Shown here in pieces: positions 12,627 through 25,689 of a stretch of 64,000 nt of DNA. Both the position numbers and the translations under genes were made by a program. This DNA comes from an uncultured Lentisphaerota bacterium (GTDB lineage: Bacteria > Verrucomicrobiota > Lentisphaeria > Oligosphaerales > CAITYL01): assembly GCA_903921725.1 (NCBI GenBank), contig CAIXRA010000006.1, positions 115,588 through 179,587 of the forward strand, written 5' to 3'. The stretch's first letter is position 1. Each line of letters starts with the position of its first letter. Under the pieces are notes generated by a model. That model did not search any database and was not told the origin of the DNA. It saw nothing but the letters and a program-made list of their open reading frames with translations.

Positions 12627-15600
12627 TCACCGCGGGGTCAGCACGCCTTTCCACGTCAGGCCGGCATCGTCACTTTTGAAGATGCCATTGCGGCAGCACA
12701 GCCAGAGGAGGTCGGAGGTGGGATCGGTAGCGATGGACGTGATGCCCTGAAATGCCGTCTCGGGCTTGCGGGCGCTCCAGTCCACCGACCAGTAGTAACC
12801 AATCCGGCCGGCATACAACGAGACCGCGGTTGACGCCGAGTATGGCGCCGCGTAGAGATCGCTACGCTTGCGGGTGCCATTCGGCCGCGAGGCGATCGCC
12901 ATGTACGGGGTGTCGGCGACGACGGTATCCCTGTATTGGAAAAACAGTTCGAGATTGAAACAATAATACAAGCCGTGCGTCGTGGCGAAATACAGGTAAT
13001 TCCCGCCTTCGGCGATGCTTTCAAAGGCCACTCCATTGACGCCGAGCCCCAGCCTTTCGGCTACTTTGGTCGCCTGCGTGCCTTTGGCGCGCACAACATA
13101 GATCCGTCCGAAACGGCGCGGCTCCGGCGGCGCGACCGCCGGTTTTTCGGCGGGCGCGTCCGCCGAGGTTCCGACAATGAGCAAATCCTTCTCGCACGGA
13201 CTGAAGGCAACCACGGTAATGCGCTCTCCTTTCAGGCCCGCATACGCCCAGGTCAGGCCGCCGTCACGGCTGACATACAGGCCGCTGGCTTCGCCGCCGG
13301 CGGCAACGACGTTCGCGTCTTGCGGATCAAACGCGATGACTTCGCCGCCGAGGGCGGACGCCCCGGTGCCATCAAAATCAATGTCGCGGCAAACCACTTT
13401 CCACGTCTCGCCGCCATCATCACTTCGCCACAGGCCTCCCGTGCCGGGAAGCGTGGTGCCGCCGCCCCTGAGGAGCACCGCGGGATTGGCGGGCTGCACC
13501 GCCACGGAGCGGATGGCGTTCCCGGCTGGCGAATCCAGGCCGTTGTTCAAGGAACGCCAGACAGCGCCGCCATCGGTGGAGCCAAGCAAGCCCCCGCCCA
13601 CGGTTCGCGCATACAGCCGCCGGTTCGCCGGCACCACCGCGACAATGCGGCCTCTGACGTCGTCGCGCCCGACAATGGCGCGGGCGGCCGGATCCGGGAC
13701 AACCGGGCCCGGAACCGCCAGGGAAATCGATTCGACCGTGCCGGAGAACAGCGTTTTGTTTTTTCCGGATTCCTTGACGCGCATGTAGACCCCGACATGC
13801 AGCCGGTCGGGAAGGGTCCGGAACAGGCGGTCGATCACCGGCACCCAGTTGATGCCGTCCGTCGACGAAAACGCGCGCAGGTGATTGCCGCGCCGCACCA
13901 GCCGCACCCAAGGGCGCGTGGTGGCATTGCCCGCCGCATAGCGGCTCAGTCCCGAGGTCTCCAGATCACGGTCGCAGGCCGTGCCGCGCAGTTCCATGGT
14001 GGCCAGACTCCACAGGCCGAAATCCTCCGCAGTCCCTTGCGGCCGGGTTTGCCCACTGCACAGCAGGCCGATCAGCGAATTGCCCATGATGCCATTTTCC
14101 CGGGTGCTGCGGCTGATCGCGCTGATTTTGGCGCTCAGGTCGAAATCGCCCGCAACCGTCTGGTAGGCAAAGCTGGCACAATCGCCAAGCATCGACACCC
14201 GATCGGGCTGCGCATCAATCCCCAGCGGCAGGCCATGCTCACCCATCACCGAATGCTGCCAAGGGGCGGAGACGGCGTCCGCCACGACGCACTTGATCGG
14301 CGGCGAATCCAAGGACGCCGTCTGGTCGTACCACAGCCTGGCCCATACCGTATTGGCGCCGGAGGGCAGCAAGGCGGCATACCCGCCCGCAACGCCGGCC
14401 GGCGGCAGAACCGCAAGGCGGGTTTTTCCACAAAACAACTCCACGCGTGTCAGCACATGCCCGTTCGCCGCAGCAACCGGCGCAATGACCCCGCCAATCT
14501 CATTCCGTTGCACGCGGATGAAGGGAAGCCCGGGCGCGCTGCCGCAAACAAGATCGGACGCAGTGACCGTCCGTGCGGCAATCCCCGGCCCTTCCCAGGC
14601 AAGCCTTAGTTTGTTTTCCAGCCAATTCCCGGCTCCATCGGCCGACCTGAAATACAGCAGTTCGAACGGGTGCAGACCCCGCTGCAGCGCCATCGTCGCA
14701 TACTGGCTGTTGACGCTATGGCACCCGTCGTTGTCGACAACCGCTTTACCGTCAATCCTCAGCCTACTGCCGTCGCACGACCGCAGGTCAAACACGTAGA
14801 GGCCGTCCGCCGGCACCTTCAGGAATCCGCTGTAGCGGAACGCATACGGTGCGGACCGCCCGACGCTTACCGTGTCGTCGAGCTCGTTGAGCACGCCGCT
14901 GTACAGTGGCTGCCGCGTGTGTACCGCGGGCAGCGTTGTCCACCGCTCATCGGCGGCGGCTTCATAATACGAATACTGCACGCCCGGCCTGCACGTTGTG
15001 CCGGACTCAGCCGCCGCGACCGCCGGCACCGCCGCCACAGGCACCACCGCCACGGTCTTCTGGTCGTACACATCCGTGACCGTCAAACGGACGCTCCGCG
15101 CCGGCTCCGCCGCATCAAGACGGTGCGACCGCACGGCCGGCCCCATCCCGCGGGACTCTGCCAGCAGCCTGCCCCCGGCTTCCGGTTCGGCAAACAATTC
15201 AACGCGATAAGTCAGCTGCGGAGTGGATGTGCGTGGAATCGTCCACGACACCGCCACCTGCCCCTTGAATCCCACCGCCTGCACCTGCCCGGCCACCGGC
15301 TGGCCGAGGGAGGGTTGGTCGGGCTGGTTGGTGAGCGTGAGTTCGGTTTTTCCGGCAATGCCGTCTTTGATCGCATCCTCGGGGGTTCTCGCGGATGAAT
15401 AGCGGAACGCCGTGCCCTTGTCCACGATTTTGAAATGATGCAGAGACCCGTTGATTTCCTGAAGCGTGTCCGCCTTGCGCCAGGCGCCGTTCACGCGATG
15501 GTAGGCCAGCCGTCGCTCGATCACCCGTTCACCCGGCGGTCCGATGACCTCGCAAAAACACGCGCCGCAGTCCACGCCCGTCACCTTGGCGGGAATGGCC

Positions 15601-16151
15601 ACCACCCCCATCAAATGCCATTCATTGTTCTGCAAATCCCCAATCCACCATCCCAGATAGCCTTTCGTTTCGGGGGTCTGCGCATCCTGCCAGGTACGCA
15701 GCACCATCCGGTACCACTGGCCCGGTCGAAGAAAGGCAAGATTGCGGGTGAGGCCGGCTTGGGTCCCTTCGCCACTCATCACGCCACCGAACGTGCTCTC
15801 GCCGAGACACTCTATGCGGATGCGGTTGCCTTTGTACACCGCCTCGTTGCCCCAAAACGACCAGACAAGACTGCGGCTTGCCTTTGCCTGTGCTTCCGGC
15901 GAGCCGTCGCGTCCCGGTCCCGCCACCGCCACGCCGCCGTAGAAATACCCGCCCGCCGGGGCCGTATTCCCGTTCCACAGCGCAAAATAGGTGCCCGGCG
16001 GCCAGTATGGCCAGCGCACGTCAACGCTGACAATGTCCGGGCTGCGCTCCATGGCCGCCTTGTACCAATCCGCACGCGCCGTGGAAGGCACCACGCCCAA
16101 CCCCACCGCAAGAAAACCGGCGGCGACTGCGGTTGTGATGCGCATGGTCAT
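12627..16151 (-). CDS. Large secreted multidomain protein (DUF3472-like, PA14-like, concanavalin-like, BNR/sortilin-like propeller)
   Basis: Signal peptide; PA14-like YSGFLKVPADGLYVFDLRSCDGSRLRIDGKAVVDN; repeated SxDGGxTW boxes (SDDGGETWKVV, SRDGGLTWAYA, SDDAGLTWKGV). Confidence 0.75.
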   Translation of the reverse strand: MTMRITTAVAAGFLAVGLGVVPSTARADWYKAAMERSPDIVSVDVRWPYWPPGTYFALWNGNTAPAGGYFYGGVAVAGPGRDGSPEAQAKASRSLVWSFWGNEAVYKGNRIRIECLGESTFGGVMSGEGTQAGLTRNLAFLRPGQWYRMVLRTWQDAQTPETKGYLGWWIGDLQNNEWHLMGVVAIPAKVTGVDCGACFCEVIGPPGERVIERRLAYHRVNGAWRKADTLQEINGSLHHFKIVDKGTAFRYSSARTPEDAIKDGIAGKTELTLTNQPDQPSLGQPVAGQVQAVGFKGQVAVSWTIPRTSTPQLTYRVELFAEPEAGGRLLAESRGMGPAVRSHRLDAAEPARSVRLTVTDVYDQKTVAVVPVAAVPAVAAAESGTTCRPGVQYSYYEAAADERWTTLPAVHTRQPLYSGVLNELDDTVSVGRSAPYAFRYSGFLKVPADGLYVFDLRSCDGSRLRIDGKAVVDNDGCHSVNSQYATMALQRGLHPFELLYFRSADGAGNWLENKLRLAWEGPGIAARTVTASDLVCGSAPGLPFIRVQRNEIGGVIAPVAAANGHVLTRVELFCGKTRLAVLPPAGVAGGYAALLPSGANTVWARLWYDQTASLDSPPIKCVVADAVSAPWQHSVMGEHGLPLGIDAQPDRVSMLGDCASFAYQTVAGDFDLSAKISAISRSTRENGIMGNSLIGLLCSGQTRPQGTAEDFGLWSLATMELRGTACDRDLETSGLSRYAAGNATTRPWVRLVRRGNHLRAFSSTDGINWVPVIDRLFRTLPDRLHVGVYMRVKESGKNKTLFSGTVESISLAVPGPVVPDPAARAIVGRDDVRGRIVAVVPANRRLYARTVGGGLLGSTDGGAVWRSLNNGLDSPAGNAIRSVAVQPANPAVLLRGGGTTLPGTGGLWRSDDGGETWKVVCRDIDFDGTGASALGGEVIAFDPQDANVVAAGGEASGLYVSRDGGLTWAYAGLKGERITVVAFSPCEKDLLIVGTSADAPAEKPAVAPPEPRRFGRIYVVRAKGTQATKVAERLGLGVNGVAFESIAEGGNYLYFATTHGLYYCFNLELFFQYRDTVVADTPYMAIASRPNGTRKRSDLYAAPYSASTAVSLYAGRIGYYWSVDWSARKPETAFQGITSIATDPTSDLLWLCCRNGIFKSDDAGLTWKGVLTPR

Positions 16152-16441: not shown

Positions 16442-16472
16442 TAAGGGTGTTGGAAGACTTCCAACACCCTAA
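16442..16472. repeat. Perfect palindrome built from the MITE ends: TAA-GGGTGTTGGAAG-A-CTTCCAACACCC-TAA
   Basis: 12-bp arms with 1-nt spacer, identical to the outermost 12 bp of the 5253-5524 element TIRs, flanked by TAA on both sides. Confidence 0.92.
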
Positions 16473-17662
16473 AGACCGACGCGGGAGCAGTACCAGAGCA
16501 TGCGCGGGTAGTGGAAGAACCCCTTCCACATGTTGCCCTTGAGGCGCACGGAGGGGGTGCCGTCGCGGTGCAGGTAGCCGTACCACTCGCCGAACTCGGG
16601 GTCGGAAAAATGCTTGAACGACCAGTCGTGCACGAGCTTGTGCCAGCCGGCATATTTGGCGTCGCCGGTCATCTCGAAGGCGAGCATGGTGGCGATGACG
16701 GCCTCGTTGTGCGGCCACCAGAACTTCATGTCCTGCCAGTATTCCTGGACCGGCTTGCCGTGCACGTCGCGGAAATAGAGGATGCCGCCGAACTCCTTGT
16801 CCCAGCCCCACTCCCACATCCAGTCGAGGATGGTCAAGCCGGTCTTCTTCAACCCTTCGTCGCCGCGCAGTTTCGCTTCGTGGAGGATGAACCAAGCGGC
16901 CTCGATGGCGTGGCCGGGGTTGAGGATGCGCCCGTCGAAGTGGTCGATGATGGAGCCATCGGGGGCGACACACTCCATGACGGCCTGCAGCTCCGGCTTC
17001 ATGAAATCCTTGCGGATCTCGGCCACGGCGCGGTCGATCCACTGCGAACAGCTGGCGCCCTCGACCGTGATGTCGCCGAGGTTGGCGCGCACTTCCTGGG
17101 CGGTGACCATGGCAATCATGAACGGGGCAAGCCCCTTGCCCGGGCGCTCCGCCTTGGCCGGGATCAGCCCGGGCGTGAAGCTGTAGCGCAGGTAGGTTGC
17201 AAAGGCGGCCTTGGCGCGCTCCGCCAGCGCGGCGTCGCCGGTGGCCTTGGACAGCGCGGCGTAGGCGATGGCGGCGAAGCTCTCGCTGTACACGTAGCGG
17301 CGCATGCGCAGCGGCTTGCCCTCGCGGGTGACGGTGAAGTACATCTTGCCGTCCGGCGCGAAGCAGTGCTTCGTCATGAACGCCTCGCCGCTGCGGGCGG
17401 CCTCCAGCCATTCGGGGCGCTTTTCGATGGTGTTGTACATCGTGGCGAACATCCAGGAGCAGCGCCCCTGGAACCAGACGGCCTTGTCGGTATCCAGGAC
17501 GGAACCGTCGCGGTCGAGCGAGGTAATGAAACCGCCGTGCTCGCGGTCGAGGGCGTTCTTCAGCCAGAACGGCGCCACGTCCTCCAGCAGCGTCCTGCCG
17601 TAGAAGTCGCGGAGCCCGGCCATTTCGGAAGCGGAATAGGCGGTCATGAAAAAGAACTCCAT
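16469..17662 (-). CDS. N-acylglucosamine 2-epimerase (AGE/RnBP family)
   Basis: (alpha/alpha)6 AGE pattern: GGFITSLDRDGS...DKAVWFQGRCSWMFATMYN...NPGHAIEAAWFILHEA. Confidence 0.9.
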   Translation of the reverse strand: MEFFFMTAYSASEMAGLRDFYGRTLLEDVAPFWLKNALDREHGGFITSLDRDGSVLDTDKAVWFQGRCSWMFATMYNTIEKRPEWLEAARSGEAFMTKHCFAPDGKMYFTVTREGKPLRMRRYVYSESFAAIAYAALSKATGDAALAERAKAAFATYLRYSFTPGLIPAKAERPGKGLAPFMIAMVTAQEVRANLGDITVEGASCSQWIDRAVAEIRKDFMKPELQAVMECVAPDGSIIDHFDGRILNPGHAIEAAWFILHEAKLRGDEGLKKTGLTILDWMWEWGWDKEFGGILYFRDVHGKPVQEYWQDMKFWWPHNEAVIATMLAFEMTGDAKYAGWHKLVHDWSFKHFSDPEFGEWYGYLHRDGTPSVRLKGNMWKGFFHYPRMLWYCSRVGL

Positions 17663-17734
17663 GTGCTGGATAGGGTTGGACCAACCCGCCGGATCCGACC
17701 GATCAGTCCAATCCGACGGATCATTTCAGCTTCA

Positions 17735-18664
17735 TCACTTGCCCAGAATCGCCTTTAGGCGGGTGGTGATGTCCTTTTTCTGCTCGGCGGTGAGCGCCTT
17801 CAGCGGCAGCCGGACGTCGCCGGCGTCGATGCCGTGGATGGCCATCATCGCCTTGCCGCCGGCCACGCCGCCGTACTGGACGAGGATGTCCACGATTTGG
17901 CAGACCTTGGCCATGCCGGCTTGGGCGGCCTTGAGGTCGCCCGTCTCGACGTTGCGCCAGATCTTCTGGTACAGCGGCGCGGCGTAATTGTAGGTCGAGC
18001 CGATGGCCGACTTGGCGCCAAGGGCGACCGCGCCGGCGAGGAACTCGTCCACGCCCCAGGTGATGTCATACTTGCCGCCGCAGGCGCGCATGCAGTTCTG
18101 GTACTCGTAGAGGTCGGGATTGTTGAACTTGATGCCGGCCAGGTTCGGGACCTTGCTGGCGGCGGCCTCCAGGAACTTGACCATCGGCAGGTTCACGCCG
18201 GACATGGTGGTGTGGTAGTAGTAAAACGGAAGCTTGGGCGCGTGGGAGGCGATGGCGCTGACGTACTCGACCAGCATGTCGACCGAGCCGGGCTTGAAGA
18301 AGTTGGCCGGAACGATCGAGGTGGCGTCGGCGCCGGCCTTCTGTGCATGCGCGGCCAGCTCCTGGGCATCGCGGATGGAAAGCGCGCCGACATGGACGAT
18401 GATGACCAGCCGGCCCTTGGCCTGCTTCACCCACTCTTCCACCACCGCCTTGCGTTCGGCGACGGAGCAGGAGATCCCCTCGCCGGTGGTGCCGCAGACG
18501 TAGGCGCCGGTGACGCCGTTCTTGACCAGCAGGGCGACCTGCTTCCTGATCTCCTTCAGGTTGACGTTGCCGGCGCGGTCAAAGGGCGTGTGCGGCGCCG
18601 CAATCAGCCCTTCCAGCTTCTTGAATTTCGGGGCGGAGCTTTTTTTCGTCGACTTGGTAGCCAT
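17735..18664 (-). CDS. nanA: N-acetylneuraminate lyase / DHDPS-family aldolase
   Basis: GLIAAPHTPFDRAGNVN; GAYVCGTTGEGISCSVAER; PFYYYHTTMSGV; LAGIKFNNPDL. Confidence 0.9.
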   Translation of the reverse strand: MATKSTKKSSAPKFKKLEGLIAAPHTPFDRAGNVNLKEIRKQVALLVKNGVTGAYVCGTTGEGISCSVAERKAVVEEWVKQAKGRLVIIVHVGALSIRDAQELAAHAQKAGADATSIVPANFFKPGSVDMLVEYVSAIASHAPKLPFYYYHTTMSGVNLPMVKFLEAAASKVPNLAGIKFNNPDLYEYQNCMRACGGKYDITWGVDEFLAGAVALGAKSAIGSTYNYAAPLYQKIWRNVETGDLKAAQAGMAKVCQIVDILVQYGGVAGGKAMMAIHGIDAGDVRLPLKALTAEQKKDITTRLKAILGK

Positions 18665-18722
18665 TGCAATGGATTCCTTTCGGGGGTAATGAATGTAATG
18701 AAAAGTGAAAAGAGGGACGATC

Positions 18723-21005
18723 CTACGCGGACTCCGCTTCGCGCCGGGGTTTGACCAGGAACAGGATGCCGCCGGCCAGTAGCAGGCCGACCGCCGCGAA
18801 CTTGAACACGATGCCTAGGTCGATCTGCTGGTCCTTGAGCATGCCGCCGACATAGATCATGATGCCGCCGGTGACGCAGCCGACCATGTTCAGCAGGCCG
18901 TAGCCGGTGGCGCGGTAGCGCGGGTCGGAAACCTGGCAGAGGATCGGCATCAGGTTGGCGTCGGAGAAGCCGCGGGCGACACCGAATACCAGCAGCCCCA
19001 CAATCGCGACGGACAGCACGGCGGTGGAGGCGGAGAGGAAGAGGAACGGCGCGGCGACGAGAAAGCCGATGGCGGGAATCAGGATGCGGCCGCGCACGTT
19101 CGTCCGGCACCACAGGTCGGCAAAGAAACCACCGAGCAGGATGCCGATGAAGGAGGCGAACTGGACATAGAAGGTCGCGTTCATGCCCGCAGCGCCCTGG
19201 CCGAGGTGAAAATGCTCCTGAAGATAGGTCGGAAGCCAGCCGTTGATCCCCCAGAACGCCATGGCCAGAAGGCTGTTGTAGACGAGGAGGAAGAGGAACG
19301 ATCCGCGGGAGAGCAGGTCGCCGAGCGCGGAGAAGAGCCGCACGTTTTCCTTCGCGGCGCCGCCGGGTGCGGACTCCGCAACCACACCGTGGTGGACATC
19401 CTTCAGCGGCCAGAAAATGACGATCGCGTAGGCGATGCCGACAAAGCCGAAGATGGTGAAGCTGGAACGCCAGCCGAACATCTCCGCGATGATGCCTCCG
19501 AGGCCGCCCATCGCGGCACCGGCGTAGAGGCCGCTCATGTGGATGCCGGTGGCCAGCGACCGGGTCGGCCCGCGGTGATAGTCGGCAATCAGCGCCAGCG
19601 CAGCCGGAATGTAGAACGCCTCGCTGATGCCCATGACGGCGCGCGCCGCCAACAGCTGGTTCAGGCTGTGGGTGTGGCCGGTGAGCCAGGTGACGACCGA
19701 CCAGACCAGGAGGCTCACGATGATGACCTTGCTGCGGCTGAAGCGGTCGGCCAGGTAGCCGCCGAACGGGCTGAAAATGGCGTAGACCCAAAGAAAGACC
19801 GTGGTCAACAGCCCGAAGTTCGCATAGGTCATCGGGTGGGAGATTTCCGGGGAACGCGTGGCGGCGCGGATTTCGCCGCTGACGACGATGTTGCGTCCCT
19901 GCCAGGCGACCATCGGGGTGGTGACGCGCGCCGCCCCCGGCATCTCGCCGATGGCCTTCCACTCGTCCTTGCGCACGTCATAGCGGACGACATCCCGGCG
20001 GAAACCGGTGCGTTTCCCGGGCGGCAGGGCCTGTTCCGAGCCGTCGTCGCCGCCGTAGAACATGAAGACGCCGTTGCCGCCCGACGCGGCGGGGGATGGC
20101 ATGCCCAGAAGCGGCCACGGCATGTCCGCCGTCCGTTTCCAGGCCGCCGAAGCCGGGTCAAACTGCCAGCTGTCCCGGAGATAGCTTTTCCGCTTCTGCT
20201 TTCCGTCCGGCCCGGCCATCAGTTCCGCTCCGCCGGCGACATGGAAGCGGCCGCGGGAAGGCGCCTGGACACCGGCCGCCGTCTTGGCGCTGTCGGGGCC
20301 AGCGGAAGCGGCCGCGCCGGCGAGGATGCGGGCCGGACCGGGGAACGCGGGCTGCGTTTTCCAGCCTTCGGCAGGCTTGTCGAGATCGAGCGCCCACAGC
20401 GCCGCGGAGGCGGCGGTGGCGCCGGGGGCCGTTTCGCCACCGGTGACGTAGAACGTGGAGCCGACGACCTTGCCGGCAAGCGTGGTGTCCACAACCGCGC
20501 CGCAGGCATTGGCGAGCGGCTGGGGAAGCGGCGGAAGGGGCTCAATCTCCACCAGGCGTTTTGCCGGGTTCCATTTCAGCAGGAACGCATCGGCGTAATG
20601 CCGGTCCGCGTCGCTGCCACCGGCGCAGACCACGCCGCCCTTGAAGGAGGCGGAGACGCCGTAGGCCAGGGGGCGGAGTAGTTTTCCGGCCTCGATCCAT
20701 GCGCCGTTGGGTTTCTCAAGGACGTAAATCTTGTCCAGCCAGACTTTTTTTCCGCCTTCCCACGGCTTGCCGTTGGGGAAGTTCGCGCCGCCGGCGACGA
20801 CCAGCGCATCGCCGGAAACCCCGGCGAACGGGGCGGCCACGCCAAGCGGATCGGGGATCGGCGCCATCTGCTCCCAGGTCGCAGATTTGATCGAGTCGCC
20901 CATGGTGGTGATCATGAGGCGGTCGAGGTAGTTGAGCATCGCGATGACCCAGAGCAGGCCGACGATCACCCAGGCGCGGGTCATGGAGGAAGGTCCGATG
21001 TTCAT
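18723..21005 (-). CDS. MFS transporter with a kelch-type sialic acid mutarotase domain inserted between TM1 and TM2
   Basis: aa 11-40 MFS TM1 (AWVIVGLLWVIAMLNYLDRLMITTMGDSIK); aa ~44-388 kelch mutarotase (VAGGANFPNGKPWEGGKKVWLDKIYVLEK...VVSGEIRAATRSPEI); aa 391-760 remaining MFS (MTYANFGLLTTVFLWVYAIFSPFGGYLADRF...). One uninterrupted 760-aa ORF. Confidence 0.93.
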   Translation of the reverse strand: MNIGPSSMTRAWVIVGLLWVIAMLNYLDRLMITTMGDSIKSATWEQMAPIPDPLGVAAPFAGVSGDALVVAGGANFPNGKPWEGGKKVWLDKIYVLEKPNGAWIEAGKLLRPLAYGVSASFKGGVVCAGGSDADRHYADAFLLKWNPAKRLVEIEPLPPLPQPLANACGAVVDTTLAGKVVGSTFYVTGGETAPGATAASAALWALDLDKPAEGWKTQPAFPGPARILAGAAASAGPDSAKTAAGVQAPSRGRFHVAGGAELMAGPDGKQKRKSYLRDSWQFDPASAAWKRTADMPWPLLGMPSPAASGGNGVFMFYGGDDGSEQALPPGKRTGFRRDVVRYDVRKDEWKAIGEMPGAARVTTPMVAWQGRNIVVSGEIRAATRSPEISHPMTYANFGLLTTVFLWVYAIFSPFGGYLADRFSRSKVIIVSLLVWSVVTWLTGHTHSLNQLLAARAVMGISEAFYIPAALALIADYHRGPTRSLATGIHMSGLYAGAAMGGLGGIIAEMFGWRSSFTIFGFVGIAYAIVIFWPLKDVHHGVVAESAPGGAAKENVRLFSALGDLLSRGSFLFLLVYNSLLAMAFWGINGWLPTYLQEHFHLGQGAAGMNATFYVQFASFIGILLGGFFADLWCRTNVRGRILIPAIGFLVAAPFLFLSASTAVLSVAIVGLLVFGVARGFSDANLMPILCQVSDPRYRATGYGLLNMVGCVTGGIMIYVGGMLKDQQIDLGIVFKFAAVGLLLAGGILFLVKPRREAESA
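19842..20876 (-). other. Inserted NanM/cyclically-permuted-mutarotase-like domain within the MFS ORF
   Basis: Subregion of 18723-21005 corresponding to aa ~44-388. Confidence 0.85.
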
Positions 21006-22615
21006 TTGCCGGTTCCCCGTTCTGCTTTTGTGGAGGCCGTATCCGGCGCAAGTTCATCAATCCTGAACGCTTGGAAAACCAACGCGGCGCGGCTGCCTTC
21101 GTAGAGGATGCCGACCGTCCTGGCGTCAATCTGCGCCATGCAGGAATAGCCGGCACTGCCCAGCTCGTCCACCAGGGTGTACCGGTTTTCAGGCCAGGTC
21201 ATGCCGTCGTCCGAGCTGACCTTAATCGTCATATGGGTGCGTCCGCCGCGGGTCGCCGGGTTTGAGAAGAGCAGCAGCCCCTTCGGGTCAAAGCGGATCA
21301 GGCTGGCCATGCAGACCGGCTCCGGCAACGCCTTCCGCGAGGTGGGGTGCTCCTCCCAGGTCGCGCCGAAATCCTTCGTGGTGTAGACTGAGCGGGAGCC
21401 GCCGCGGTTGTCGCGCATGTTCAGCATCAGCGTGCCGTCGGAAAGCTCGACGACCTGGGCTTCGGTGGTGTTGGACTTCGGTCCTTCCTGAAGCTTCCAG
21501 GTCTTGCCGCCGTCCCGGCTGCAGGCGATGGTGGAGTACGGCATCTTCTTCGCATCCCAGTACTGCGCGGGGAACACCAGCACGCCAGCCCGCGTGGTGA
21601 TTCCCATGCCCGGCCCTTGGAACACGATCTTCCATTCCCGTTGCTTGATCTGCGGCGTGATGGACTCCGGCTTGGACCACGAGCGTCCGTCGTTAGTGCT
21701 TTTCACCAGCATGAACTGGCCGGACTCCTCAGGGGTGAACCCCGGGCCGGAACCATGAATGGAGCGGTTGCCGTGGCTCCACAGCGCCGCCACCCAGGTG
21801 ACGCCGGTCTTGTGGTCCACCAGCACGGTTGGATCGCCGATGCCGTTTCCGCTGAACTTGTCGTGGTCGCCCATGTCCATGATGGTCTTCATCGGCGCCC
21901 ATGTCCGACCGCCGTCCACGCTGCGGCTCATGCCGACATCAATACGGCCCGGCAGGTCGCCTCCGTTTTTATAACGGATGTCGTACACGGCAATGAGCGT
22001 CCCCGCCTTCGTCACCGCCAGGCCGGGAATCCGGTAAGCGACGGATCCGTCATCCCCCCCTTTGCGCAGTGCGATTCCGATCCGCAAACGGCCGTCGCCC
22101 CCGTCCGTCCGCGGCTCCGGTACGGGTTTCAGCACCGTTCCACCCGCCAGACGCAGCTCCGCGACGGCGGCGCGCACGCGGTGGAACGGATCCGCCTTGT
22201 CCTGCAGCTCGCAAGAGACAACGAAGTAATGCGTGCCGGCCGCCAGTTCCAAGGGGGCGGAAAAGGTCATAGCCGCCGCCGCCGGCTGCGCCGAGCCGAA
22301 CGGCTTCAGCGGATCCAGCTTGTCCGACTGCGCCTCCAGCGCATACGGATCCTTGGCCCCGGCGTAGTACACGCGGAAGCTTTTCACGTCCTTCAGGTCA
22401 TCCGTCCCCTCCGTTTTCACCAGCAGGGAGGCGGCCTGCACGGTTTCCCGGCATTCAATCTTGATGCGGCAGAGCGGGTTATATGCCTTGCGGACCAGGA
22501 CGGGAACGGTTTTGAACGCGGAGGTGCACGCCGCATCCGCTCCAGCCGCAACGGCAGGGAGCGCCAATCCGGCGATGCCCGCAAAAATCGAAATCCGGCA
22601 AAACAGCCTGTGCAT
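21002..22615 (-). CDS. Secreted exo-alpha-sialidase (BNR repeat neuraminidase, GH33-type)
   Basis: Signal peptide; YRIPGLAVTKAGTLIAVYDIR; Asp boxes SVDGGRTW, STNDGRSW, SRDGGKTW, SSDDGMTW; stop overlaps the downstream start by ATGA. Confidence 0.94.
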   Translation of the reverse strand: MHRLFCRISIFAGIAGLALPAVAAGADAACTSAFKTVPVLVRKAYNPLCRIKIECRETVQAASLLVKTEGTDDLKDVKSFRVYYAGAKDPYALEAQSDKLDPLKPFGSAQPAAAAMTFSAPLELAAGTHYFVVSCELQDKADPFHRVRAAVAELRLAGGTVLKPVPEPRTDGGDGRLRIGIALRKGGDDGSVAYRIPGLAVTKAGTLIAVYDIRYKNGGDLPGRIDVGMSRSVDGGRTWAPMKTIMDMGDHDKFSGNGIGDPTVLVDHKTGVTWVAALWSHGNRSIHGSGPGFTPEESGQFMLVKSTNDGRSWSKPESITPQIKQREWKIVFQGPGMGITTRAGVLVFPAQYWDAKKMPYSTIACSRDGGKTWKLQEGPKSNTTEAQVVELSDGTLMLNMRDNRGGSRSVYTTKDFGATWEEHPTSRKALPEPVCMASLIRFDPKGLLLFSNPATRGGRTHMTIKVSSDDGMTWPENRYTLVDELGSAGYSCMAQIDARTVGILYEGSRAALVFQAFRIDELAPDTASTKAERGTGK

Positions 22616-22708
22616 GATTTGTCTCCTTCATTCTTTCGGAATTATTAATCCACCCCAGCTGGGATTTTTGTATTAACAACTTACATTTTCCACTTAAACA
22701 AAAGATAA

Positions 22709-22725
22709 CACCCTAAAACTTAGGT
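22709..22725. promoter_or_regulatory. Candidate operator (imperfect inverted repeat) in divergent sialidase/regulator promoter
   Basis: CACCCTAAAACTTAGGTG-type dyad in the AT-rich 22616-22821 intergenic region. Confidence 0.3.
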
Positions 22726-22821
22726 GCAAAACTACAAAAAGTTAATTTAACCCCTATATTACATCTCATATTTCACATTTCCACACTCAATCGTCGCATT
22801 GCATAAACGGAAACTCATCAC

Positions 22822-23967
22822 ATGGTCACACGGCACAAACACGTCCTGCTGGTTCTGGGCTGGTACAACCGCGGCTATTACCGCGGCATCTCCCGTTATG
22901 CCCGCGAGCACCACTGGCACGTCACGACCGACATGGTGCACAACGCCTTGGTTCCTTGGGGCTGGCAGGGAGATGGCGTACTGTCCGTACTGTCCAACCG
23001 GCGCGACTTGGCGGACTTCATGCAGACGCTCAGCGTCCCCAAGGTTGACCTGGGCCTGACCATGCCGGAACTGAACATTCCGCGCGTGACTCCGGACAAC
23101 GAGGCGATCGGACGCATGGTGGCCGAATATTTCTTGGAGCGCGGCTACCGGAATTACCTGTGCATCGACCGCTGGGACGCCGCCACCGAGCGCGAACGCC
23201 GCGCCGGCTTCGTCGAGGCATTGAACGCCAAAAAGATAGAGTCTCAGCTTCATTCGTTCACCGAACGAGGGAACCCGCGCTTCGCCAGCTGGGCGGAGCG
23301 GCAGTCCTGGCTGGCCGGCTGCATTTCGAAGCTCCCGAAGCCCCTCGCCGTGTTCGCCCAGCACGACACGCTTGCCTTCGATGTGGTCGAGGCGGCCAAC
23401 AACTGCGGCATCCGCGTCCCCGAGGAAATCGCCCTGATCGGCAGCGAAAACGACGAGATGGCCTGCGAATGCTGCGCCGTCCCCCTCTCCAGCGTGGATT
23501 GCAACATGGAGGAGGTGGCCTACCGCGGGGCCGCCCTTCTCGATCGCATGATGAATGGCGAGTCGATGCCTGCGGCACAGGTCACCCGCATCGCCCCCGT
23601 CGGGATTGTGGACCGGAAAAGCTCCAACATGCCCGCCATCCGCAACCTCAAGGCGGCCATGGCTATGAATTTTATCCGTGAAAACGGGCACAAGCCGATT
23701 GACATCACCGATGTCTGCACGCATGTGAAGCTTTCCAAGGCCGGCCTGCAGCGTGCCTTCCTCCAGGAGCTCCACCAGAGCCCCGGTGCCGTCCTCCGCG
23801 CGCACCGCCTGCTGCATATCAAGAAAATGCTGGCGGAAACGGACAAGAACCTGAACGAAATCGCGGAGGCGTCCGGCTACGGCAGCTCCATCGCCCTCTG
23901 CAACGCATTCCGCCGCGAGTTCAACTCCACGCCGGGTGAATACCGGAAACATTGCCGCGGAGAATGA
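22822..23967 (+). CDS. XylR-type transcriptional regulator (periplasmic-binding-like N-domain + AraC HTH)
   Basis: LacI/PBP-like sensor region and C-term AraC HTH (LNEIAEASGYGSSIALCNAFRREFNSTPGEYRK). Confidence 0.9.
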   Translation: MVTRHKHVLLVLGWYNRGYYRGISRYAREHHWHVTTDMVHNALVPWGWQGDGVLSVLSNRRDLADFMQTLSVPKVDLGLTMPELNIPRVTPDNEAIGRMVAEYFLERGYRNYLCIDRWDAATERERRAGFVEALNAKKIESQLHSFTERGNPRFASWAERQSWLAGCISKLPKPLAVFAQHDTLAFDVVEAANNCGIRVPEEIALIGSENDEMACECCAVPLSSVDCNMEEVAYRGAALLDRMMNGESMPAAQVTRIAPVGIVDRKSSNMPAIRNLKAAMAMNFIRENGHKPIDITDVCTHVKLSKAGLQRAFLQELHQSPGAVLRAHRLLHIKKMLAETDKNLNEIAEASGYGSSIALCNAFRREFNSTPGEYRKHCRGE

Positions 23968-24027: not shown

Positions 24028-25689
24028 TCAGCCGTCGTATATCTTTTCCAGGATGACGGCGTCGGGTATCCGGCCTTCGGGGTTCCCGCAGATGTTCCGC
24101 AACCGGTCCGCCAAGTGCGCCAGGCGCTCCCCGGCATCCCCGGAAAGTTTCAGCATGGCCTCCTGCTCCCCGTTGATCTCCCCCAGATGGCGGGCGGCGA
24201 GCATCTGCACAGTCGTGGTGATGACGGTGAGCGGCTGGAACAGTTCCTGCACAACCTCCGCCAGCACCTCCATCAGCCGGCGCCGCGACATTTCGCGCCG
24301 CTGCTGCTGCGGATCCAGGGAATCGCCCTCCTTCGACAGTTCATCCGCGATCCGGGACAGATCGTCCAGCTTCTTTTCCGTGGCGGCCGCGGTGGCCTCC
24401 ATCAGTTCCCCAAGTTTTCCGGCGGCCTCGGCCACCTTCCGGCCGCGCTCGGCCGCATCCAGCCCCTGCGGTCGCAGCAGCCCGTCCAGCCCCTCAAGCA
24501 TTTCCGACAGGGCGGAACCGCCGACCCGACCCGACCCGGCGCCCCCCCGTTTTTTCCCCTGCCCCCGGGCCGCAGCGGCCTGAAGCACCCGCCACCCTTC
24601 CGGCGTGAGCCCCTCCGCCGCCAGCCGCTCCCTCAGCGCCTCCCCGGCGGCGGTGTTCCGTTCGGCATTCTGCTTCAGGAACTTCAGGATTTTTTTCTCC
24701 GTCGCCTCCATGGCGCTGCGTTTTTTCATGTAGTCGCCCGCCAGCGAATCCACGGCTAAATCCTCCTGCATCTCCGCAAAGGCCACCGCCACCGGCGCAA
24801 GGTTGATTTTCGTCCGCCCCTTTACCATCGCCGCCAGGCGGGGCATCAGCTCCTTTTCGAGAAGCTGCAGCATCTTGGCGATCCGTTTCCGCCCCTGCTT
24901 CGTCCGGGCCTCCGGCAGCCGGCAAATTTCCTCTACGCACCTCTGGAGCGTCTGCGCGACCGCCCCGGCCAGCGTCGCCCCGCCATCCGTCAGCGCCGCC
25001 TGCCGGATTTCCTCGGATGCCAGAATACCGTCCGCCATGCCGGATGCCTCCTGCTCCGGCGTTGTCTCCGCCGACGGCGGCGGATCGGCCGCCCCCACCC
25101 CACGTCCGGTAGCCGCCTTGAGTTTTGCCACAAGCTTTTCCAGCGCATGCGGGTCGCCGCCTGGAACCGACAATGCCAGCCCCTGCAGGAGTTCGTTCTT
25201 CTTCAGCACCACCTCGTCGTCCCCGATCTGCTGGAACGAAGCGGCACGCGCCTGGACGTGCGCCAGTCCGCGGCGGGAACAGAGGGCGATGAACCCGCCT
25301 TCCGCCTTCAGGCGCTCGGGCGGCGTGGCCAGCATCTCGAAAAACTGCATGAACTCATCGCGGGACATGCCGCCCTTCATCTCGAAATTCCCCACGCTCA
25401 TCATCGCCAGCCGCCTGATGAACGGGGCGGCCTGGGGATTGCGGGAACCGACCGGCTGGCCGTCCACCAGCAGGCTGTTGTCCACCACGGAAAAGGAGAG
25501 GCTTTCGCGGCCTTCCAGCAGCCGGCCGAGGCCGTTGTATGCCTCCTCCAGAGTCTGACGGGTTATCTTGTGCGCCGCCCCGTAAAACGTCGTGTTGTTC
25601 CACGCCTGGCCGAAAAGGCGCAGAAGCGCCTCGATCGCAGGCATGGAAGAAGGGGACACGCCTGCCGGGTCGCTCATTATTTCAGACAT
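24028..25689 (-). CDS. Hypothetical coiled-coil protein with degenerate HisKA-like C-terminus
   Basis: C-term EVVQELFQPLTVITTTVQMLAARH... resembles a DHp (SHELRTPLTVI) helix but lacks the His; no HATPase follows. Confidence 0.5.
   Translation of the reverse strand: MSEIMSDPAGVSPSSMPAIEALLRLFGQAWNNTTFYGAAHKITRQTLEEAYNGLGRLLEGRESLSFSVVDNSLLVDGQPVGSRNPQAAPFIRRLAMMSVGNFEMKGGMSRDEFMQFFEMLATPPERLKAEGGFIALCSRRGLAHVQARAASFQQIGDDEVVLKKNELLQGLALSVPGGDPHALEKLVAKLKAATGRGVGAADPPPSAETTPEQEASGMADGILASEEIRQAALTDGGATLAGAVAQTLQRCVEEICRLPEARTKQGRKRIAKMLQLLEKELMPRLAAMVKGRTKINLAPVAVAFAEMQEDLAVDSLAGDYMKKRSAMEATEKKILKFLKQNAERNTAAGEALRERLAAEGLTPEGWRVLQAAAARGQGKKRGGAGSGRVGGSALSEMLEGLDGLLRPQGLDAAERGRKVAEAAGKLGELMEATAAATEKKLDDLSRIADELSKEGDSLDPQQQRREMSRRRLMEVLAEVVQELFQPLTVITTTVQMLAARHLGEINGEQEAMLKLSGDAGERLAHLADRLRNICGNPEGRIPDAVILEKIYDG

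Follow-up and report, generated by a model that had tools for sequence, protein, structure and literature searches.

A NanM-type mutarotase domain nested within an MFS transporter in a probable sialic acid catabolic locus of an uncultured Lentisphaerota bacterium

Uptake of sialic acid by E. coli is accelerated by a free periplasmic mutarotase (PMC10017367), and a cytoplasmic counterpart, YhcH, provides the open-chain sugar to the lyase (PMC8141875). In the route of Bacteroides fragilis, an AGE epimerase precedes phosphorylation, and a kinase encoded elsewhere phosphorylates GlcNAc (PMC10017367). The mutarotase and the sialic acid importer have so far been studied separately; no description of a mutarotase-MFS fusion was found in the open-licence literature searched. 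The locus analysed here is very probably a sialic acid catabolic unit of the B. fragilis type whose importer carries its own mutarotase. It shares with the B. fragilis nanL-nanE-II/RokA/NagA/NagB system a lyase and an AGE epimerase acting before phosphorylation, a kinase and nag genes elsewhere in the genome, and the lack of NanE, whereas its mutarotase and its transporter are one polypeptide and its adjacent regulator is XylR-like.

Gene content of the locus and the catabolic route

The window is a stretch of 64,000 nucleotides of DNA from a draft genome of 3.18 Mb in 82 contigs (94.65% complete). The original prediction had recognised a sialic acid scavenging locus of five ORFs here, and all five are present where it had placed them. 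They are listed together with an inverted repeat:

16444..16470, minus strand: 13-bp perfect inverted repeat that overlaps the stop codon of the epimerase gene (fold z-score -4.0)
16469..17662, minus strand: AGE/RnBP-type N-acylglucosamine 2-epimerase, 397 aa (8BRY and 2GZ6 matches)
17735..18664, minus strand: N-acetylneuraminate lyase (NanA/NanL), 309 aa (match to 5AFD)
18723..21005, minus strand: mutarotase/MFS single ORF, 760 aa (domain order, excision test, AlphaFold2)
21002..22615, minus strand: GH33 exo-α-sialidase, 537 aa (Pfam and structure matches 4FJ6/4BBW)
22822..23967, plus strand: divergent XylR-type regulator, 381 aa (4FE4/4FE7 matches)

The sialidase and mutarotase/MFS ORFs share an ATGA at 21002-21005, as had been noted before; 58 nt lie between the mutarotase/MFS ORF and the lyase, and 72 nt between the lyase and the epimerase. 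The inverted repeat, which has no U-tract, is likely to be the 3' end of the transcription unit. Past this hairpin, 317 nt downstream of the epimerase, the minus strand encodes a secreted protein of 1174 aa (12627-16151) in which DUF3472, PA14 and Asp-box-like repeats are recognised; it is possibly a glycan-binding or glycan-active protein in a separate unit.

All Pfam assignments for the five ORFs exceed the gathering cut-off and agree with the identities predicted for them (sialidase, mutarotase/MFS, lyase, epimerase and XylR-type regulator). Several NCBIfam equivalog cut-offs were missed, and the proteins are therefore named at the family level. The sialidase has BNR_2/BNR_3 and BNR_assoc_N domains and a signal-like segment at its N-terminus. 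It aligns over its full length to the Bacteroidota GH33 structures 4FJ6 and 4BBW (419 and 409 bits), the alignment covering the RIP motif and the VYDIRY, NTTEAQV, MRDNRGGSR and GYSC blocks; the Asp boxes, the RIP motif and the catalytic Asp, Glu and Tyr blocks of a GH33 enzyme are all found in it. The lyase is a DHDPS-family protein, the closest solved structures of which are the N-acetylneuraminate lyases 5AFD (349 bits, full length) and 6H4E (341 bits). Its YYYH and GIKFN blocks (Schiff-base Lys) align with 5AFD. E. coli NanA is a distant match at about 130 bits, and the lyase scores below the NCBIfam equivalog cut-offs. The epimerase (GlcNAc_2-epim, PF07221) is closest to 8BRY (519 bits), followed by the AGE/RnBP structures 2GZ6 (299 bits) and 1FP3. 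It has the AGE/RnBP fold with both catalytic-His blocks (NPGH and FFH) aligned, and scores 375 against the NF052547 cut-off of 600. These enzyme identities bear out the scavenging function proposed for the locus.

A search for nagA, nagB and a kinase, suggested with the original prediction, was carried out over the whole genome. NagA and NagB were each found above the curated cut-off, together with a single ROK sugar kinase (325 aa, without a DNA-binding domain) of putative sugar specificity; NanE was not found in this search. The claim that an AGE/RnBP-type epimerase replaces NanE thus holds for this genome. The operon is not self-contained as had been supposed, since the genes for the kinase, the deacetylase (NagA) and the deaminase (NagB) sit on other contigs. 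A ManNAc kinase is indeed missing from the locus, as had been remarked; this is expected for the B. fragilis route, because the AGE epimerase precedes phosphorylation and the kinase encoded elsewhere acts on GlcNAc. With a lyase in the cluster, an AGE epimerase without NanE, and ROK, NagA and NagB encoded outside the locus, the route runs from the lyase through the AGE epimerase and the ROK kinase to NagA and NagB, as in B. fragilis, and is not new.

The regulator consists of a LacI-like sensor (Peripla_BP_3) and an AraC HTH, and matches the structures of the xylose operon regulatory protein 4FE4/4FE7 (E. coli XylR) over its full length with 118 bits. No homologue of it was found near any related locus examined, and the repeats upstream are weak ones only, so that adjacency is the one feature suggesting that it may control the unit. 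A promoter scan gave no candidate exceeding shuffled sequence. The regulator adjoins a gene on the minus strand (24028-25689), the 553-aa product of which matches HisKA weakly and has no further recognised domain.

Architecture of the mutarotase/MFS protein

The label mutarotase-MFS, which the second gene of the unit had received, is right in that both domains are present, but it missed the nesting of one within the other. The first MFS helix corresponds to residues 1-36 of the 760-aa ORF, the mutarotase to residues of about 44-391, and MFS helices 2-12 follow:

20877..21005, minus strand: MFS N-terminus and TM1, residues 1-43 (aligned with the TM1 of 15 standalone MFS genes)
19833..20876, minus strand: inserted NanM-type kelch β-propeller, residues 44-391, 348 aa, 1044 bp (PF24996 and excision borders)
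18723..19832, minus strand: MFS TM2-TM12, residues 392-760 (PF07690, 175 bits)

For an excision test, all possible blocks near the borders were removed and the remainder was aligned with seven separate MFS genes. The best excision was of 348 residues with all seven relatives (either 44-391 or a block displaced from it by two or three positions), after which the loop between helix 1 and helix 2 aligned gap-free in every case. By this test the MFS part gained or lost zero residues, and the mutarotase is shown, on the sequence level, to be a clean insertion between TM1 and TM2. The insert starts where mature mutarotases start, minus the signal peptide, and ends just past the catalytic motif, the closing strand of the propeller being shortened at the C-terminal junction. 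A tandem fusion, with the mutarotase before or behind the MFS, was rejected, because TM1 precedes and TM2-12 follow the propeller. In an earlier AlphaFold model built with read-through rows, TM1 was badly placed, and the prediction was rerun with TM1-aligned rows; Foldseek matched the propeller of the earlier model to kelch structures. The AlphaFold2 model with TM1-aligned rows (mean pLDDT 86, pTM 0.65) has twelve membrane helices and a β-propeller, with TM1 modelled as a helix at residues 5-35 (pLDDT up to 95); the model leaves the two linkers, 37-42 and 379-384, ill-defined, along with the placement of the two domains relative to each other.

The propeller scores 95.9 bits with PF24996 (NANM) against a cut-off of 45, and 127.8 bits, in two stretches, with TIGR03548, short of the cut-off of 243.2. 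It resembles E. coli NanM/YjhT (2UVK) in the kelch propeller fold and in the Glu and Arg of the catalytic motif, and differs from it in being circularly permuted (family profile positions 136-345 align to 2UVK 3-225, and positions 19-136 to 2UVK 225-350), in having no signal peptide of its own and in being embedded in a membrane protein, while NanM is a soluble, free periplasmic homodimer. E378 and R384 correspond to E209 and R215 of 2UVK and are invariant in all 21 aligned mutarotases; both residues were reportedly found to be essential in E. coli NanM by Severi et al. in 2008. The 25 columns that are invariant among the 21 mutarotases, these two included, are all retained. On the other hand, at nearly invariant positions beside the catalytic pair, RPGVR reads RAATR here (the conserved Pro-Gly-Val between the two residues is changed to Ala-Ala-Thr), a substitution that would count against full mutarotase activity, and the model confidence is lowest at residues 379-384, where this motif departs. 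At another of these positions the conserved H of an HPGF motif is replaced by R.

The MFS part is 53-58% identical to the closest standalone MFS genes. Against the models of the E. coli sialate:H+ symporter NanT (NF003024 and TIGR00891), it scores 38.9 and 33.5 bits, below the 604 and 552.9 bits required; the closest NCBIfam model, TIGR00893, is also below its cut-off. Close cousins of this MFS (about 50-57% identity) occur without a neighbouring mutarotase at L121 (5110-6324), where the neighbours are an HpcH/HpaI aldolase and an FAD oxidoreductase and sialic acid genes are not obvious, and at L119 (4504-6894), where two tandem MFS genes lie near a NagA-like amidohydrolase. The MFS subfamily may have a wider substrate range. 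Some MFS carriers, such as those of the SLC22 family, have a large extracellular TM1-TM2 loop. A folded domain in this loop is common to them and to the present protein, whereas the SLC22 domain is neither an enzyme nor a β-propeller.

Related loci, other fusions and distribution

Fifty-three related loci were found in genome contigs; where an MFS is present, it and the mutarotase are two neighbouring genes, and the MFS retains its own TM1. Loci L002-L016 and L028 (Verrucomicrobiota, Planctomycetota and Bacteroidota) have a homologous mutarotase and MFS, usually with a lyase, but as separate genes, with the mutarotase upstream and bearing its own signal peptide. Two sets of candidate fusions were rejected: L002-L016, picked up by tblastn matches to residues 1-759, consist of two ORFs with TM1 in the MFS, and G067, a 974-aa open frame, consists of two ORFs with a stop in between. 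A lyase-family gene accompanies 14 of the 16 adjacent mutarotase-MFS pairs, and an AGE epimerase and a sialidase are often present too, in variable order. The original prediction had stressed that the genes follow the pathway steps. This is true of the present locus and is not kept in relatives (sialidase-lyase-mutarotase-MFS in L004; epimerase-mutarotase-MFS-lyase in L014), and the order carries little meaning, since relatives vary and one in 24 random four-gene orders would match.

In MFS carriers the N-terminus is cytoplasmic and the TM1-TM2 loop faces outwards, while an SSF-type symporter starts outside. A single chain of signal peptide, mutarotase, extra TM helix and MFS is encoded by 12 genomes, all from one genus within this phylum (g83; L107, L115, L131-L140). 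As in the present protein, mutarotase and MFS are in one polypeptide with the enzyme predicted to be periplasmic; in contrast, the kelch domain is N-terminal, not nested, and an additional helix restores the MFS topology, as is needed, on general knowledge of that topology, for a carrier starting in the cytoplasm. In most of these 12 genomes, a second, separate mutarotase gene directly adjoins the fusion gene. At many other loci a mutarotase is fused ahead of a much longer membrane protein, which in the six loci checked with Pfam (L018, L023, L030, L033, L034 and L117, in Bacteroidota, Planctomycetota and Verrucomicrobiota) is a sodium:solute symporter; here the mutarotase is joined N-terminally, with the SSF in place of the MFS. 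At least three architectures are thus predicted to attach a mutarotase to a carrier with the enzyme outside the cytoplasm.

A second nested copy was found neither among 60 relatives nor in 198 genomes of the same class, nor in 388 phylum genomes and additional samples of 384 and 373 genomes, sets that overlap and of which the last three were all drawn within the phylum. The present genome alone among the 198 of the class gave a strong match, which suggests that the locus may have been gained from outside the class. In trees, the propeller and the MFS group with different neighbours, with weak to moderate support. The related loci stem largely from MAGs of lakes, groundwater and the sea, and also from a cultured Sphingobacterium and from MAGs of Tannerella, as far as isolate names tell the sample types. 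The host-mucin niche once proposed for this bacterium is not sustained, because similar loci occur largely in aquatic, free-living bacteria and the genes therefore do not indicate a mucosal host.

Proposed mechanism and alternatives

The analysis shows the gene identities, the retained active-site residues, the clean insertion and the presence of NagA, NagB and ROK without NanE; in the mechanism proposed here, we infer Neu5Ac as substrate, mutarotase activity, import and any kinetic gain from tethering. The secreted GH33 sialidase would free α-Neu5Ac; the NanM-type propeller, which MFS helices 1 and 2 would hold on the periplasmic side, would shift it towards the β-anomer, and the 12-helix MFS would take Neu5Ac into the cell. 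There, the lyase would yield ManNAc and pyruvate, the AGE epimerase would convert ManNAc to GlcNAc, and the ROK kinase, NagA and NagB encoded elsewhere would complete the route to fructose-6-phosphate. The distance of the MFS from the NanT models, its cousins at loci such as L121, the altered residues beside the catalytic pair and the confinement of the nested form to a single draft genome speak against this reading. That nesting couples anomer conversion to transport, with the conversion of fresh α-Neu5Ac taking place at the carrier's mouth, is put forward tentatively, at something short of an even chance; if true, fresh α-Neu5Ac would be taken up before competitors get at it.

The insertion might be real and the tethering neutral, or the propeller might be an inactive structural or binding domain. 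The change of RPGVR to RAATR, the low model confidence at residues 379-384 and the shortened closing strand would all fit, while the intact reading frame, the retention of the 25 invariant columns with E378 and R384, and the fusion of mutarotase and transporter by different routes in other lineages point the other way; this reading is unlikely, though not by so much as to be set aside. A related nonulosonic acid such as KDN could be the substrate in place of Neu5Ac, given that NanM and the E. coli lyase accept KDN in vitro (PMC8141875) and that Neu5Ac is a presumed substrate of the MFS. The AGE epimerase and the genomic NagA and NagB suit an N-acetyl sugar, however, and a ManNAc epimerase would be of no use for KDN, which makes this substrate improbable.

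The nested ORF could also be an assembly error fusing pieces of two neighbouring genes, as it is known from one draft genome of 82 contigs with no second example in the searches. Such an error would need two independent breakpoints that both preserve the frame and fall precisely on domain borders, and would have to leave the MFS residue-complete and yet drop the signal peptide and stop codon of the mutarotase; moreover, neither gene has a second copy or a remnant in the genome at E<=0.001. With both junctions in frame and at domain borders, an assembly error is very improbable. The preferred reading is still a B. fragilis-type unit with a mutarotase inside its importer.

The operon type is already known. 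Its variant with a mutarotase nested in the transporter is new, well supported as far as sequence evidence goes, and a clear case of a whole enzyme placed in a carrier with all carrier residues kept. Three modes of joining can be distinguished: insertion into an MFS, N-terminal attachment to an MFS by way of an added helix, and N-terminal attachment to a sodium symporter. That such fusions recur suggests that mutarotation may be coupled to import at the membrane. The nested form fixes a one-to-one ratio of enzyme to carrier, which would make this coupling directly testable.
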